A stretch of DNA of 64,000 nt from Candidatus Gastranaerophilales bacterium (GTDB taxonomy: Bacteria > Cyanobacteriota > Vampirovibrionia > Gastranaerophilales > Gastranaerophilaceae): positions 1-64,000 of the forward strand of contig CALVEN010000003.1 in NCBI GenBank assembly GCA_944326585.1. Direction: 5' to 3'. Below are positions 12,559 to 54,852 of the stretch, one piece after another. Within the stretch, counting starts at the first letter, position 1, and every line of letters begins with the position of its first letter. Below the pieces are notes generated by a model. That model did no database searches and was not told the origin of the DNA. It was given only the letters and a program-made list of their open reading frames with translations. A program made the translations under genes and the position numbers.

Positions 12559-13299
12559 CTAATAATAAGTTATTTTATACCCTTCCTCAATAATTCTTGC
12601 CGCACAGCCCCAGCCGCTCGCATCATCCGAAACCTGAATTTTTTCACCGGGATTCCCGCATAAAGCAGCGGAATCTTTCCACACTTCCAATCCCGGAATA
12701 CCAGCGGCAGAAGTTCCGTAAGGGAAGATTACAGGTATATTCTTAATTTTTTCATCACTCATGTCCATAACAAACACAAAAGCATCATAGCCTAATTTGT
12801 TTGGTTTTTGAGCTCCGTTAGTATCAAGAACAACCAGCATTACTCCGGCAACACCGTTAGCAACGGTAAATGCAGAACCGTCCGCAAACATTACACCATA
12901 AGGATTTGTGACACCGATACTGAGTTCGCTGCCGTTAAATCCTTCATAAGTCTTTGATACGCAATTTTCAATTTCATTTTCACCTTTGCAAATTTTACTG
13001 CCCTTAAATGCTGTATCAAACACATCGTCAATATTATCGTATTTCGCATTATTCACAGCTTCCACCAAATAATCGGAAATCTTTGAACATTCATTTGTAG
13101 AACAATATGATGCCGCCAAATAATTTCTGAAGCCGTTTAATACCATGGCATAACTCTTCTTAAACCGATTCAAATACATATTCTTCTGATAATTTGTAAC
13201 AAGCGTCGGTATTGTCATGGCTGCCACAACACCGATAATCCCGAGAGTTATCAATACCTCGGCAAGAGTAAAACCTTTTTGATTTCTATTTCCGTTCAT
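12559..13299 (-). CDS. Type IV pilin-like / type II secretion pseudopilin
   Basis: A 246-residue prepilin. The leader is short (MNGNRNQKG) and cut before F in KG|FTLAEVLITLGIIGVV. The hydrophobic helix ends at IPTLV near residue 31, followed by YQKNMYLNRFKKSY. The globular part has six or more cysteines, with a CGN...GWGC pattern near the C-terminus (about 213-231). It has DTNGAQKPNKLGYDAFVF, an acidic Ca-binding-like turn shared by pseudopilins of this type. AGAAGGAG precedes the ATG. It should be processed by the peptidase at 8909-9892. Whether it is a structural pilin, a minor pilin or a secretion pseudopilin cannot be told. Confidence 0.85.
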   Translation of the reverse strand: MNGNRNQKGFTLAEVLITLGIIGVVAAMTIPTLVTNYQKNMYLNRFKKSYAMVLNGFRNYLAASYCSTNECSKISDYLVEAVNNAKYDNIDDVFDTAFKGSKICKGENEIENCVSKTYEGFNGSELSIGVTNPYGVMFADGSAFTVANGVAGVMLVVLDTNGAQKPNKLGYDAFVFVMDMSDEKIKNIPVIFPYGTSAAGIPGLEVWKDSAALCGNPGEKIQVSDDASGWGCAARIIEEGYKITYY

Positions 13300-27251: not shown

Positions 27252-28313
27252 TCACAGCCACGGATAACTATCATCAATCTGCCAGTCATTAAGAAATATA
27301 TAAAACCCGCAAAATTGTGCATCATTTTTACAATTTTGAAGCGCAATAGCCTTATTTCTTGCATTGCCCATCATGGAGAATTTTTTTGTTTCAACGTCAA
27401 ACTGCATATAAAACAAATCTTTTCCGACAGTATTAGGCTGGCTGAAACCGTTCATATCCGTTAAAAACACAATATTATTCACACTGCGCTTAATACATGT
27501 ATCGCCGTCATACTCAATACACCGGCCGCTGAAAGAAACATTCACATAAACATTGTTTGAAAGCAAAAACATATAACCGGAATTTACGTATTTTAAGCCT
27601 GTTGTCGGCGCAGTACGCTCCCCGTACCCTATAAGACGCGAATCATTATAGCCGAAATTTCTTGTTACTTTTACATACGGAATAAGATATTTTTGAGAAA
27701 AAGCCGTAATCAACTCCTCTTTTGGAAAATCAGGGTCAAGACTGTCAGCACCTCTTATACCGGACAAATCCCACGTTGTCGGATCCCCGTGTTCCGCCTG
27801 CGCCATTGAAAGAGCCTGCGACAAAATTGAATACGTCTGCTTCAAACGTGTAACCGTCTGTTTTTTATTATAATTACTAATCAAAGTCGGTATTGTCATT
27901 GCAGCAACTATGCCGATAATACCGAGAGTTATTAAAACCTCTGCCAAAGTGAAGGCGGCTTTTTGTGAAGATACTAAGTTACTAAGGCAGTAAGGCACTA
28001 AGTGTTTACTGTGAGCTTCACTCCCTGATCTGTCATGCTGAACTCGTTTCAGGGTCTCTGATTTATAATTCATCATATTAGAATTATAATTTGTTTCTGG
28101 TGTTGTGTCAATTCGTTTTATATCTTGTAGGTCGGGTTTACTAACCCGACGGTAAACTTTTCTGTCGGCATAGTAATGCCGACCTACATTTCTGTTGCCT
28201 CTTAGTGCCTTAGTGCCATAGTATCTTAGTATCTTTTTCCAACGTAGACCGCCAAAACCCTTGTCCTGTCTACTTAGGAGAGTCGCCCCCCCCCCGTTAT
28301 TCAAACTGGTCAT
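27252..28313 (-). CDS. Pilin-like protein with poly-G tract and repeat-derived leader (in frame)
   Basis: A predicted 353-residue prepilin. Start ATG 28313 follows a strong promoter (28343-28371) and a GGAG site about 11 bp upstream. The first residues are MTSLNNGGGATLLSRQDKGF; GGGG is encoded by a 10-G run (28286-28295). About 95 residues then come from dispersed repeat modules read in frame. The prepilin signal follows near 128, in QKAA|FTLAEVLITLGIIGIV, with Ala rather than Gly at -1. The mature part has TWDLSGIRGADSLD, FSGRCIEYDGDTC and a tail ending DSYPWL. It is a paralogue of the gene at 49688. A shorter start within the repeats (for example ATG near 28077) lacks a ribosome site. The long leader would be removed by prepilin peptidase. 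Confidence 0.75.
   Translation of the reverse strand: MTSLNNGGGATLLSRQDKGFGGLRWKKILRYYGTKALRGNRNVGRHYYADRKVYRRVSKPDLQDIKRIDTTPETNYNSNMMNYKSETLKRVQHDRSGSEAHSKHLVPYCLSNLVSSQKAAFTLAEVLITLGIIGIVAAMTIPTLISNYNKKQTVTRLKQTYSILSQALSMAQAEHGDPTTWDLSGIRGADSLDPDFPKEELITAFSQKYLIPYVKVTRNFGYNDSRLIGYGERTAPTTGLKYVNSGYMFLLSNNVYVNVSFSGRCIEYDGDTCIKRSVNNIVFLTDMNGFSQPNTVGKDLFYMQFDVETKKFSMMGNARNKAIALQNCKNDAQFCGFYIFLNDWQIDDSYPWL
27965..28235. repeat. Dispersed repeat modules inside the leader of a pilin-like gene
   Basis: An ACTAAG-type module (about 27968-28005), a CTGAACTCGTTTCAGG hairpin module (about 28038-28060), a GTCGG/CCGAC-type hairpin (about 28128-28165) and a second ACTAAG-type module in the opposite sense (about 28195-28235) all lie between the start codon and the prepilin signal. 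The reading frame stays open through all of them. Confidence 0.8.
28286..28295 (-). repeat. Poly-G tract, 10 Gs (sense strand), in frame
   Basis: Ten consecutive Gs on the coding strand, six codons after the ATG. The paralogue at 50992-51000 has nine. Ten Gs join the start codon to the prepilin frame; loss or gain of one would shift it. Homopolymer runs this long are prone to slipped-strand change. Confidence 0.85.
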
Positions 28314-49687: not shown

Positions 49688-50806
49688 CTAAAACCACGGA
49701 TAATCGTCTTTGATTTCCCATCCGTCAAGAAATATCAAATACCCGCAAATTTGTGTAGCTCCATCGCTTTTGCAACTGTCTAAATAACGCTGTCTTGTCA
49801 TTATGCCGTAATTATGAAATCCGAAAACTTTTTTGCGTAAATCAAACGTCATATAAAATACATCTTTACCTAGAGTATTCGGTTTTTCAAAACCGTTTAT
49901 ATCAACTTCAAAAATAATATTTCTATATTCAATAGACACACAACTTCCATCAGGATTTGTACCGCCAATACAGCCAGATGTACCAATACCTACACTTATT
50001 AAAATATTATTTGACAATAAAATTCTGTATTTAAAACTTCCCCTCGTAAGAGCATAATTATTCGTTACAGGATTGTATGGACCGTCATAATTTACAGTTT
50101 GTTCTTTCTTATAACCAAAATCTTCAGATACCTTCAAATACGGAATAAAATATTTTGCAGCAAATTTTGTTAATGCATCTTTATGATTAAAATTAGCATC
50201 ATCTGTAGGCGTACCGTAAATTCCTGCGACCTCCCACGTTGTGGTGTCGCCATGCTCTGCCTGCGCCATTGTTAATGCCTGCGATATTATTGAATAAGCT
50301 TGTTTTAATTTTGATGCAGTCTGTTTTTTCTGATAATTCGTTATAAGAGTCGGAATAGTCAAAGCTGCCACAATGCCGATTATGGCGAGGGTTATCAGGA
50401 CTTCCGCCAAAGTGAAAGCGGCTTTCTTTTTAAAGCCGTTAAGACGATAAGACGTTAGGACGTTAAGTTCTTTACTGTGAGTTTCGCTCACTACTCTGTC
50501 ATCCTGAACTCGTTTCAGGATCTCATCATAAGCTGATAGCCCCCTCTCCCTTAATCCCTCTCCCGTAGGGCGAGGGAAGGTATTTATGTCATTCTGAGCC
50601 ATATTCTCTTGTAGGTGGTAAACTTTTCTGTCTGCATAGTAATGCCGACCTACTAATTTTTCCCTCCCGCCCTTGAGGAACAAAGGGAGCCAACGAGGCA
50701 CGAGTTGTGCGACCCTGTTTCCGAAACGTAGTGTAGGTGGGAGGGTTAGGGTGGGGGGATTTTTCTTGAGAGCCTGAATCAAGTTCAGGATGACATGGTA
50801 AGTCAC
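49688..50806 (-). CDS. Pilin-like protein; 5' end out of frame with its ATG (poly-G switch OFF)
   Basis: Mature pilin part present: FKKKAA|FTLAEVLITLAIIGIV, then TTWEVAGIYGTPTDD and a tail ending DDYPWF. It is a close paralogue of the 27.3-kb gene. The listed frame opens at a GTG (50806) inside repeats without a ribosome site, so the true start is probably ATG 51018, preceded by AAGGAG and a strong promoter (51046-51074). Between them lies a 9-G run (50992-51000). With 9 Gs the ATG frame gives MTTLNNGGGRLSQIDRTRV... and stops after 24 codons at 50944-50946. With 10 Gs, 51018 to 49688 would be one open frame of 443 codons. The long leader is repeat-derived, including LKRVQDDRVVSETHSK. Confidence 0.75.
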   Translation of the reverse strand: MTYHVILNLIQALKKNPPTLTLPPTLRFGNRVAQLVPRWLPLFLKGGREKLVGRHYYADRKVYHLQENMAQNDINTFPRPTGEGLRERGLSAYDEILKRVQDDRVVSETHSKELNVLTSYRLNGFKKKAAFTLAEVLITLAIIGIVAALTIPTLITNYQKKQTASKLKQAYSIISQALTMAQAEHGDTTTWEVAGIYGTPTDDANFNHKDALTKFAAKYFIPYLKVSEDFGYKKEQTVNYDGPYNPVTNNYALTRGSFKYRILLSNNILISVGIGTSGCIGGTNPDGSCVSIEYRNIIFEVDINGFEKPNTLGKDVFYMTFDLRKKVFGFHNYGIMTRQRYLDSCKSDGATQICGYLIFLDGWEIKDDYPWF

Positions 50807-50945
50807 GCCAATGCCCGATGTGTTGTCCTGCCTCAGGCAGTGCGGGATGACAGATGTCCTGCTAACACAACTATATTGATCCGCCTTACAATGACGAATG
50901 TTACTTCTTAGTGCCTTTGTGCCATAGTATCTTAGTAACTTTACT
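50456..50945. repeat. Dispersed repeat modules inside the leader of a pilin-like gene
   Basis: A CTGAACTCGTTTCAGG hairpin module (about 50504-50522), a CTCTCCC hairpin module (about 50541-50575), a GTCGG-like hairpin relic (about 50630-50655), a CTGCCTCAGGCAG hairpin (50829-50841) and an ACTAAG-type module (about 50905-50945) all lie between the start region and the prepilin signal. They keep one reading frame open once the G-tract frame is restored. Confidence 0.8.
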
Positions 50946-50991
50946 AAACCAGTACCGCCAAAACCCTTGTCCTGTCTATCTGGGAGAGTCG

Positions 50992-51000
50992 CCCCCCCCC
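50992..51000 (-). repeat. Poly-G tract, 9 Gs (sense strand), out of frame
   Basis: Nine Gs six codons after ATG 51018. The distance from ATG 51018 to the downstream frame is 212 bp, one short of a multiple of three. The paralogous gene has ten Gs and is in frame. Confidence 0.85.
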
Positions 51001-51045
51001 GTTATTCAAAGTAGTCATATCTATCACTCTCCTTTTTCTGTGTTT

Positions 51046-51074
51046 ATTATATCAAAAAATTTAATTTTTGACAA
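51046..51074 (-). promoter_or_regulatory. Promoter of the 49.7-kb pilin-like gene
   Basis: On the minus strand, TTGTCA, a 17-bp spacer, then TATAAT (51046-51051), with AAGGAG and ATG 51018 about 20 bp beyond the expected transcription start. The layout matches the promoter of the 27.3-kb paralogue. 51075-51236 otherwise has no gene. Confidence 0.8.
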
Positions 51075-52456: not shown

Positions 52457-54823
52457 CTAATTGATATCAACGATACTGACGCCGTCTCCGCCTTCTGTGT
52501 CCTCTCCGGGCCGGAATTTTGCAACGTAGGGAGAAGTTGATAAAAAGTCGCGAACGGCTGATTTAAGGGCGCCTGTGCCATGCCCGTGAATAATTGTAAC
52601 CGGTGAAAGGTTTGCAAGGCTTGCCTTATCAAGGTAAAACTCAAGGCTGTCAAGCGCATCTTCCGTTCTGTAACCTCTTAAATCAAGCGTGTTTGAGAGA
52701 TTTAAACGTTTTAATTCAAATTTTTCAAAGCTGCTCGGTGTATAAATTTTGACCGGCTCTTTGTAGTTTTGGTCAAGCACTGCAAGCTTTTCTGTTCTAA
52801 TCTTGGTTTTTATGTTGCCCATTTGAACAAAAACATTACCGTGTTTGTCGGGTTTGGAGAGGATTGTAACCGGCTGATGAAGTTCTTTGAGCATGACTTT
52901 GTCATCGGGCTGAACTTTATCCCAATCAATTTCCAAATATTTTTGTTTTTCGTCATGGTCAGAAATTTTGCCTCTGAAATCCTGTTCGAGTTTTGCAAGA
53001 CGTGCATATGAGCGGCGGGCGATTTTTTCGGATTTTTCGCGGCGAAGTTCGTCTAAAATATCCTTGATCTCCGCTTTTACGGTTAAAAGCTCGCGGTCAA
53101 ACTTGTCTTTTATGTTTTTGATTGTTTTTTTCTTGTCTTTTTTAAGCGCGGAGAGGTTTTCTTCGTATTCCTGTTTAACGGAAAGGGAAGATTCTTTTAA
53201 TTCTTCGGCTTGTTCAAGATTTTTGGACAACTGCATTTGAGTTTCCTGAAGTTTTTCAACAACAAGGATAGAGGGGTCTTTTTGAGATATGAGAATATTT
53301 TTGGCTCTTTCAACAATTTCTTTATCAAGCCCGAGGTTTGACGAAATTGCGATGGCGTTACTCAGACCCGGAATTCCAAGAAGAAGTTTGTAGGTGGGTT
53401 TTAGAGATTCCGTATCAAATTCGACAGAGGCATTTTTAAAATACGGGTTAACGTATTCGAGCGATTTAAGCTCTCCATAGTGGGTTGTGACGGTTGAGAA
53501 TACATTTTTGCCTGCGAGGTTTTCAAGAATAACCTGAGCCAGTACGGCGCCTTCCAAAGGATCAGTTCCCGCGCAGATTTCATCAAGCAGGATAAAAGTT
53601 TCGTCGTCGGATTTGTTAACTATTTCAATAATATTTGTCATGTGAGCGGAAAAAGTTGAAAGGCTTTGCTGGATACTCTGGGCATCACCGATGTCCGCAA
53701 AAATATTTTTGAAGGGATAGAGTTTGGCATTTGCTGCAGGCAGAAACATGCCGGCTTTTGCCATAATGAGGAAAAGCCCGATTGTCTTTAGCGTAACTGT
53801 TTTTCCGCCTGTATTGGAACCTGTTATGATAACGGATTTGTAATCGCGTCCGATTTCAAAGTCGTTTGCAACAACGTTTTCGACCGTTCCTATTAAAAGC
53901 GGATGCCGCATGTTTTCAAAAATTACCTCTTTTTCGGAAAGAATTTCCGGCTCTGTTGCCTGAATTTTTACGGCATAACGGGCTTTTGCAAAGTGAAAAT
54001 CAATCTGTGCAAGCAGATTTTCGGATAATTTGAGTTCATTAATCCGCATTTTTACAAGATTTGTAAGCTCAACGAGAATTTTTATCAATTCAGAATGGAT
54101 TTTTGATTTAATTTCCCGGATTTTGTTATTAATCGGGACAATTTGTTCGGGTTCTATATAAAAAGTTTTGCTTGTTGCGGAAACGTCGTGGACAATCCCC
54201 GGAACTTTGCTTTTTGAAGATGCCATAACCTGAAAAACAATTCTGTCGTCGCGGGTTGTGTAGATATTTTCCTGCAGGTGCTTGGAAAAATCAGCAGACG
54301 TCATAAGCTCATTAACTTTTGTTTTGAGATTTTTTTCGGTTTCGTTCAAAGATGCAAAAAGCCCTTTAAGCTCCGGTGTTGCATCGTGTTTTATGTTCAA
54401 TGTGTCGTCAAAGGTTGAAAAAATCTTTTCTTCAAGCTCTTTATCAACAACTAAATCCCTTGAAATTTTGTAAAGACAGGTGTCTGAGAGGGTGTTTTCC
54501 GTAAGAAATTTCTTAACAAGCCTTGACGTCCTGAAAGTTTTTGCAATGTCGTTGAGTTCTTCTTCATTCAGATAACTTGAAAATGAATTTTTTTCGATTC
54601 TTTCAATATTCGCAATAAATTCGACCGGAATATCAAGCGCCGTGTCCAGAATTCTTTTAGCCTCTTTTGTAAATTCCAGCTGAGATTTAATCTTCTCAGC
54701 CGTATCAAAAATTTTTGCATTCAGACAAAGCTCCTTGCTTTGCGGAGTTTTTGCAAAATTTGACAATTTTTCAAGCACTTTGTCAAATTCCAATGCTTTA
54801 AGACTTTTTGATACAATATCCAT
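52457..54823 (-). CDS. mutS2: MutS2 / RqcU-type endonuclease
   Basis: A MutS-like ATPase of 788 residues with a C-terminal Smr nuclease domain. It works on recombination intermediates and, in some bacteria, splits collided ribosomes. Walker A TGSNTGGKTVTLKTIG (about 340), Walker B ILLDEICAGTDPLEGA (about 421). A long coiled section (about 520-620) leads to the Smr domain: NTLDLRGYRTEDALDSLE (about 705) and IIHGHGTGALKSAV (about 745). I chose ATG 54823; the TTG at 54841 is also possible and neither has a clear ribosome site. Length normal for MutS2. Confidence 0.95.
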   Translation of the reverse strand: MDIVSKSLKALEFDKVLEKLSNFAKTPQSKELCLNAKIFDTAEKIKSQLEFTKEAKRILDTALDIPVEFIANIERIEKNSFSSYLNEEELNDIAKTFRTSRLVKKFLTENTLSDTCLYKISRDLVVDKELEEKIFSTFDDTLNIKHDATPELKGLFASLNETEKNLKTKVNELMTSADFSKHLQENIYTTRDDRIVFQVMASSKSKVPGIVHDVSATSKTFYIEPEQIVPINNKIREIKSKIHSELIKILVELTNLVKMRINELKLSENLLAQIDFHFAKARYAVKIQATEPEILSEKEVIFENMRHPLLIGTVENVVANDFEIGRDYKSVIITGSNTGGKTVTLKTIGLFLIMAKAGMFLPAANAKLYPFKNIFADIGDAQSIQQSLSTFSAHMTNIIEIVNKSDDETFILLDEICAGTDPLEGAVLAQVILENLAGKNVFSTVTTHYGELKSLEYVNPYFKNASVEFDTESLKPTYKLLLGIPGLSNAIAISSNLGLDKEIVERAKNILISQKDPSILVVEKLQETQMQLSKNLEQAEELKESSLSVKQEYEENLSALKKDKKKTIKNIKDKFDRELLTVKAEIKDILDELRREKSEKIARRSYARLAKLEQDFRGKISDHDEKQKYLEIDWDKVQPDDKVMLKELHQPVTILSKPDKHGNVFVQMGNIKTKIRTEKLAVLDQNYKEPVKIYTPSSFEKFELKRLNLSNTLDLRGYRTEDALDSLEFYLDKASLANLSPVTIIHGHGTGALKSAVRDFLSTSPYVAKFRPGEDTEGGDGVSIVDIN

Positions 54824-54852
54824 AATATTATTTAAAAACAAGCATAAAATAT

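Follow-up and report, generated by a model that had tools for sequence, protein, structure and literature searches.

A pilin-like gene behind nine Gs as one member of a large, mostly OFF and putatively phase-variable pilin repertoire in Gastranaerophilales

Near the coding start of a pilin-like gene on the minus strand of the window, the stretch of 64,000 nucleotides from a Candidatus Gastranaerophilales bacterium that was analysed here, a homopolymer of nine Gs stands between the ATG and the pilin frame and sets the frame that is read, which raises the question of whether this tract acts as a slipped-strand switch. Read from ATG 51018 with nine Gs, the frame yields MTTLNNGGGRLSQIDRTRVLAVLV and then TAG; with ten Gs it stays open through KKAAFTLAEVLIT to the pilin stop, and the leader that precedes the pilin is open only when the frame shifts at the tract. 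When the sequence was re-examined, every coordinate that the earlier note had given for the promoter, the AAGGAG, the ATG and the tract was right (Table 1), and translation reproduced its stop after 24 codons, the pilin frame one base out and the 443 codons without a stop that a tenth G opens.

Table 1. Features of the pilin-like locus, its second copy in the window and the prepilin peptidase match.
Feature	Position	Strand	Basis
Sigma-70-type promoter TTGTCA-17-TATAAT	51046..51074	-	11/12 consensus, TG ahead of -10
Shine-Dalgarno AAGGAG	51029..51034	-	sequence
OFF-product frame, ATG 51018, nine Gs: 24 codons, then TAG	50944..51018	-	translation
G9 tract	50992..51000	-	sequence; 123/149 sibling tracts likewise exactly G9
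Leader in pilin frame, ATLPDRQDKGF... to KKAA, with dispersed repeats	50417..50992	-	translation
Mature type IV pilin-like protein, FTLAEVLIT...DDYPWF and stop	49688..50416	-	PF07963, TIGR02532, structure model
Second copy of the leader, G10 tract, in frame (ON)	28286..28295	-	sequence and translation
In-frame pilin gene behind the G10 tract, ATG 28313, 353 codons	27252..28313	-	translation
Peptidase_A24 domain, sole prepilin peptidase match in the genome	9221..9613	+	domain match

The prepilin N-terminal motif of the window gene scores above threshold in two models (PF07963, 26.8 bits against a cut-off of 21.2; TIGR02532, 22.8 against 16.3), and the Glu5-bearing FTLAE is invariant in 50 aligned relatives. 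At position -1 of the cleavage site the window gene has Ala (KKAA^FTLAE) in place of the Gly that many siblings carry (RKG^FTLAE). A structure model (pLDDT 93.5) comprises a long N-terminal helix and a beta domain, and the best pilin matches in a fold search were weak, with Z about 4.2, and tied with unrelated folds. Besides the prepilin peptidase match, the genome contains four matches to T2SSE-type ATPases, and we infer that the putative pilins may be displayed on a pilus.

The view of a single locus had to be abandoned, as the leader, ATG...AAC-G9-CGACTCYYC, was found 28 times in the genome from which the window derives. About 2 runs of at least nine Gs or Cs would be expected in this 1.70-Mb genome from the composition of the window; 43 were counted, of which 27 sit in the pilin leader (21 G9 and 6 G10), the 28th copy of the leader being GGGGGGGGAG. 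One of these copies is the other long poly-G tract in the window (28295-28286; ten Gs), overlooked in the earlier note, which stands in frame with a pilin gene whose motif lies at 27953. Across nine genomes of the genus the leader was found 149 times, a figure that undercounts diverged copies because the search pattern demanded CGACTC after the tract, with 35, 37 and 31 copies in the relatives G010, G014 and G015, respectively, and fewer in the others. The leader with a long G run was absent from every other genus among the 288 genomes searched. The 149 tracts were distributed as 123 G9, 13 G10, 3 G7, 2 G8, 1 G6, 1 G11 and 6 carrying an A, and the segments ahead of the sibling tracts are enriched in promoter-like sites.

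Start assignment is uncertain in some copies and 4 of the 149 have no detectable start; in 139 of 145 copies the SD-adjacent start codon is in frame with the first G. The pilin frame needs one more base in 122 of these 145 copies, is in frame (ON) in 18 and needs one base fewer in 5, and hence ON and OFF versions coexist within the leader family (18 vs. 127). Downstream of the tract, 130 of 138 leaders can be read in the pilin frame as far as the prepilin signal without a stop, against 2 and 0 for the other two frames and about 5% for shuffled leaders, and over 11,713 leader codons the pilin frame contains 20 stops vs. 1,014 and 1,133 in the others. These frame statistics reject a non-coding leader. 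The pilin bodies yield dN/dS values of 0.06-0.40, including pairs in which both tracts are G9, the OFF length; judged from these ratios, the bodies are under purifying selection, and on the same grounds a pseudogene reading was rejected. A pilin-frame start codon upstream of the tract is missing from 102 G9 copies, and the shortest leaders (L032, L173, L220, L234, L236 and L155), in which the tract stands 10-13 codons before FTLAE (for example, MLSSLKFGGG/ATPLGRQDKG^FTLAEV in L220, with the slash at the tract), have no downstream start either, so that any expression of those pilins must cross the tract.

Most leaders are much longer than this (median 88 codons) because dispersed repeats lie within them, in frame. 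Three such repeats, GRHYYADRKVYRRVSKPDLQ, VILNLIQALKK and LVPYCLSNLVSSKKAAFTLAE, occur in the window leader and in other leaders, and the dispersed leader repeats match 96 places in the genome. Rickettsia palindromic elements, too, are dispersed repeats that interrupt coding sequence without breaking the frame, a resemblance by description; unlike them, the repeats found here cluster in prepilin leaders, which would be removed on processing. Since the leader upstream of FTLAE is presumably cut off by the prepilin peptidase, insertions that keep the frame would be tolerated there.

Comparison between species revealed that the tract can change where little else does. The G9 locus L236 of G010 and the G10A locus L155 of G014 share 98.7% identity across 2,261 nt and differ by 27 substitutions, and the sole indel between them falls at the tract; the tract differs between L282 and L258 too. 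The odd variant G10A, with GA inserted, recurs at L155 and L258, loci that belong to different species. Tract length is the same in many other orthologous pairs, several being both nine or both ten after several per cent divergence, and 33 of the 35 tracts in G010 are G9. Nine Gs fixed in all related strains, which the earlier note had held to speak against a switch, is therefore nearly what is seen, with most copies at G9 across species, but not fully, in that the orthologous sites L236/L155 and L282/L258 differ in length.

The same note had proposed comparing tract length and frame in other isolates or metagenome bins; comparison across related genomes brought to light both ON and OFF genes and tracts of G8-G15 and C9. 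In the sister species G013, 57 pilin genes lie behind G8-G15 or C9 tracts, mostly within other leader sequences, with 12 of them in frame (ON) and 45 OFF. The OFF genes mostly need one base more, one subfamily (L391, L373, L359, L410, L412 and L406) needs one base fewer, and ten of the G013 pilin genes use C9. Of the 107 genomes and 41 genera of the family, 92 and 37, respectively, have runs of at least nine Gs or Cs; as many as 128 long G tracts occur in a single genome, and lengths range from 9 to 17, the maximum being 15 in G013 and 17 in the family. In other genera, L315, L322, L324, L328, L329, L337 and L338 carry long G tracts in surface-type genes, which by eye from the sequence resemble a glycosyltransferase, O-acetyltransferases, flagellin and signal-peptide adhesins.

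The tract also marks a boundary at which pilin bodies have changed places. Where sites in different species are syntenic, they have the 1.5 kb upstream in common (85-96%) until about 15-44 bases past the tract start, beyond which the sequences diverge, and several pairs regain homology from the C-terminal DGWEIKDDYPW codons onwards into the downstream flank. In all, eighteen pairs have such a boundary at the tract (among the exchange pairs with tract breakpoints are L230/L095, L280/L245, L142/L155 and L014/L268). The converse is found as well: one and the same gene, at 93-97% across 1.6 kb, can follow unrelated promoters, with identity starting at the tract. Homologous recombination between the common leader and the common C-terminus would be the simplest account of this body exchange, and the leader alone can be exchanged too, as L230 and L095 have the same flank and the same body with a different leader.

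Cumulatively, we hold with moderate confidence that these observations reflect slipped-strand phase variation of a large, mostly OFF pilin repertoire, in which the window gene is one of about 28. Each gene has its own promoter, Shine-Dalgarno sequence and ATG and runs 6-9 codons into the G tract, the pilin being reached only at the right length: at the common length of nine, translation would end within about 12-28 codons, and ten Gs would bring the prepilin into frame. Rare ON cells would arise when DNA polymerase slips at the tract, and the ON state would be short-lived because longer tracts contract more readily, so that each cell would show few pilins from a large silent set. Recombination from the common tract and leader to the common C-terminal end would swap the bodies between species, and tract base and direction would be free to vary, as they do in G013 (poly-G and poly-C, +1 and -1), as DNA slippage allows. 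Switching within the population, ON/OFF expression and a selective benefit are presumed in this account. The uniformity of G9 counts against free switching, which would be expected to scatter the lengths more; keeping in mind that the assemblies are metagenomic consensuses, with one genome per species, it is possible that the recovery of the majority allele, together with a contraction bias, reconciles the two. The proposal of the earlier note, a contingency locus for a secreted or pilus subunit, thus retains its core, in that control of a pilin gene by slippage is still the explanation that fits best, but its scale was too small, since many loci are involved, and it is tempered by the predominance of G9 across species and by the internal promoters, described below, in nearly half of the siblings.

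The persistence of a uniform G9 between species keeps alive an alternative in which the tract is fixed and read by recoding, either through a -1 ribosomal frameshift on G GGG GGG or through base-adding slippage of RNA polymerase, the constant tract length setting a low level of expression. We consider this unlikely, yet a serious contender. Genes are known in which ORFs are joined across a slippery homopolymer by programmed frameshifting or transcriptional realignment, with a conserved offset (PMC3711429); here, unlike in those genes, the direction of the offset and the base (G or C) differ among subfamilies. Consistent with recoding, the one-base-short state holds in 122 of the 145 copies in four well-sampled species and behind segments upstream of the tract that are very diverse (median pairwise identity 52% in the commonest, 27-nt class), one-unit departures of pure tracts are lopsided (13 G10 vs. 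2 G8), and purifying selection extends to G9/G9 pairs. Compared with shuffled versions, the leader in the window has a somewhat better predicted fold (z -2.2). However, six or seven Gs would suffice for a ribosomal slip, whereas the tracts preserve nine with hardly an interruption; lengths of up to 15 occur in G013 and of up to 17 across the family; and the SD and anti-SD-like variants do not co-vary, the same lack of co-variation across copies having led us to discard an SD-sequestering hairpin of GGAGAG with the post-tract CTCTCC. A downstream ORF always in the -1 frame is not what was found, as this arrangement occurs in 122 of 145 copies of the leader family and not in the related G013 pilins. 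Moreover, one G013 subfamily is OFF in the opposite direction and ten genes have C9, and a single -1 ribosomal mechanism cannot serve poly-G and poly-C in both directions; a universal programmed -1 frameshift was rejected on this basis, and it stays a rival for this leader. A genome-wide version, in which about 30 out-of-frame pilins would be made at a low shared level through slippage and the tract and leader would serve as the junction for body exchange, appears rather unlikely.

A further possibility is that the tract is bypassed, the pilin being made from an internal promoter and an ATG close to the prepilin signal, with the tract ORF as a leader peptide or relic. An internal TTGACA-17-TATAAT promoter with at most 2 mismatches is present in 61 of 132 leaders, is perfect (12/12) in 31 of them as compared with none in 1,320 shuffled leaders, and is followed by an ATG exactly six bases past the -10 in 50 cases. 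This suggests a second start, from which the message would be leaderless and the prepilin would have a short leader of canonical type, so that some pilins could be made whatever the tract, and genes with the internal promoter may have tract-independent basal expression. The internal promoter is present in the leader of the 28313-27252 gene of the window and in many G015 loci. Among the same 132 leaders, however, it is absent from the 51018 copy and from 70 others, and 130 of 138 leaders preserve an open frame from tract to pilin, for which a bypass has no use, the part upstream of the internal promoter likewise being kept open; the six short leaders without a downstream start also weigh against a bypass, which as a general account we regard as improbable. 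Transcription from a start downstream of the tract, the other finding that the earlier note had considered adverse to a switch, is thus conceivable for nearly half of the siblings, and the 51018 gene has no such promoter. Finally, it is very improbable that the real tract has ten Gs and that assemblers dropped one, error-prone as homopolymers generally are, since the same genomes contain the same leader assembled with G10 and independent bins from different assemblers yield G9.

Phase variation of a pilin repertoire would have parallels in several known systems. In Neisseria, silent promoterless pilS copies feed the single expression locus pilE. The repertoire described here resembles this arrangement in that pilins appear to be recombined between conserved ends, and differs from it in that every copy has its own promoter, start and tract and in that exchange is seen between species. 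Switching of surface genes by poly-G tracts in other bacteria, which the earlier note had mentioned, has a close precedent in the sortase-dependent pili of the gut commensal Bifidobacterium breve UCC2003, where an intragenic G tract of about ten lies near the pilin start, with about 93% of chromosomes at the annotated OFF length and about 6.5% one base shorter (PMC9187656). As in B. breve, most tracts are at the OFF length and the tract splits the secretion signal from the pilin body; in B. breve, however, two loci encoding LPXTG pili are concerned, whereas here tens of prepilin-type genes per genome share a common leader, the tract precedes the prepilin signal and bodies are exchanged at the tract. 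The AT-rich Campylobacter genomes contain many intragenic hypermutable poly-G/C contingency tracts in surface genes (PMC8355987), mostly genes for glycans, flagella and restriction, whereas here one pilin family dominates, mostly in the same tract state. In the one literature library searched, a flagellin survey was all that we found on phase variation in Melainabacteria, pilin variation in Gastranaerophilales was not covered, and no report described such a scale (28-57 tract pilins per genome) for this group.

If phase variation is the right explanation, the putative contingency genes of an uncultured, non-photosynthetic cyanobacterial relative living in animal guts would form one of the larger sets of their kind, several species carrying 28 to 57 switchable pilins in each genome, and this would explain how surface fibres could vary against hosts or phages. 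Gene callers will split or truncate such genes, reading the G9 copies as a fragment of 12-28 codons or as a pilin with a false start.

Three further features of the window deserve mention. A C8 run at 287-294 lies inside a dispersed inverted-repeat sequence and was rejected as a switch candidate for want of a pilin frame. Two prepilin genes without a tract, at 13272 and 35291 on the minus strand, are usable as tract-free controls. A gene that appears MutS2-like by eye from its translation lies near the pilin gene (52457-54841, minus strand).
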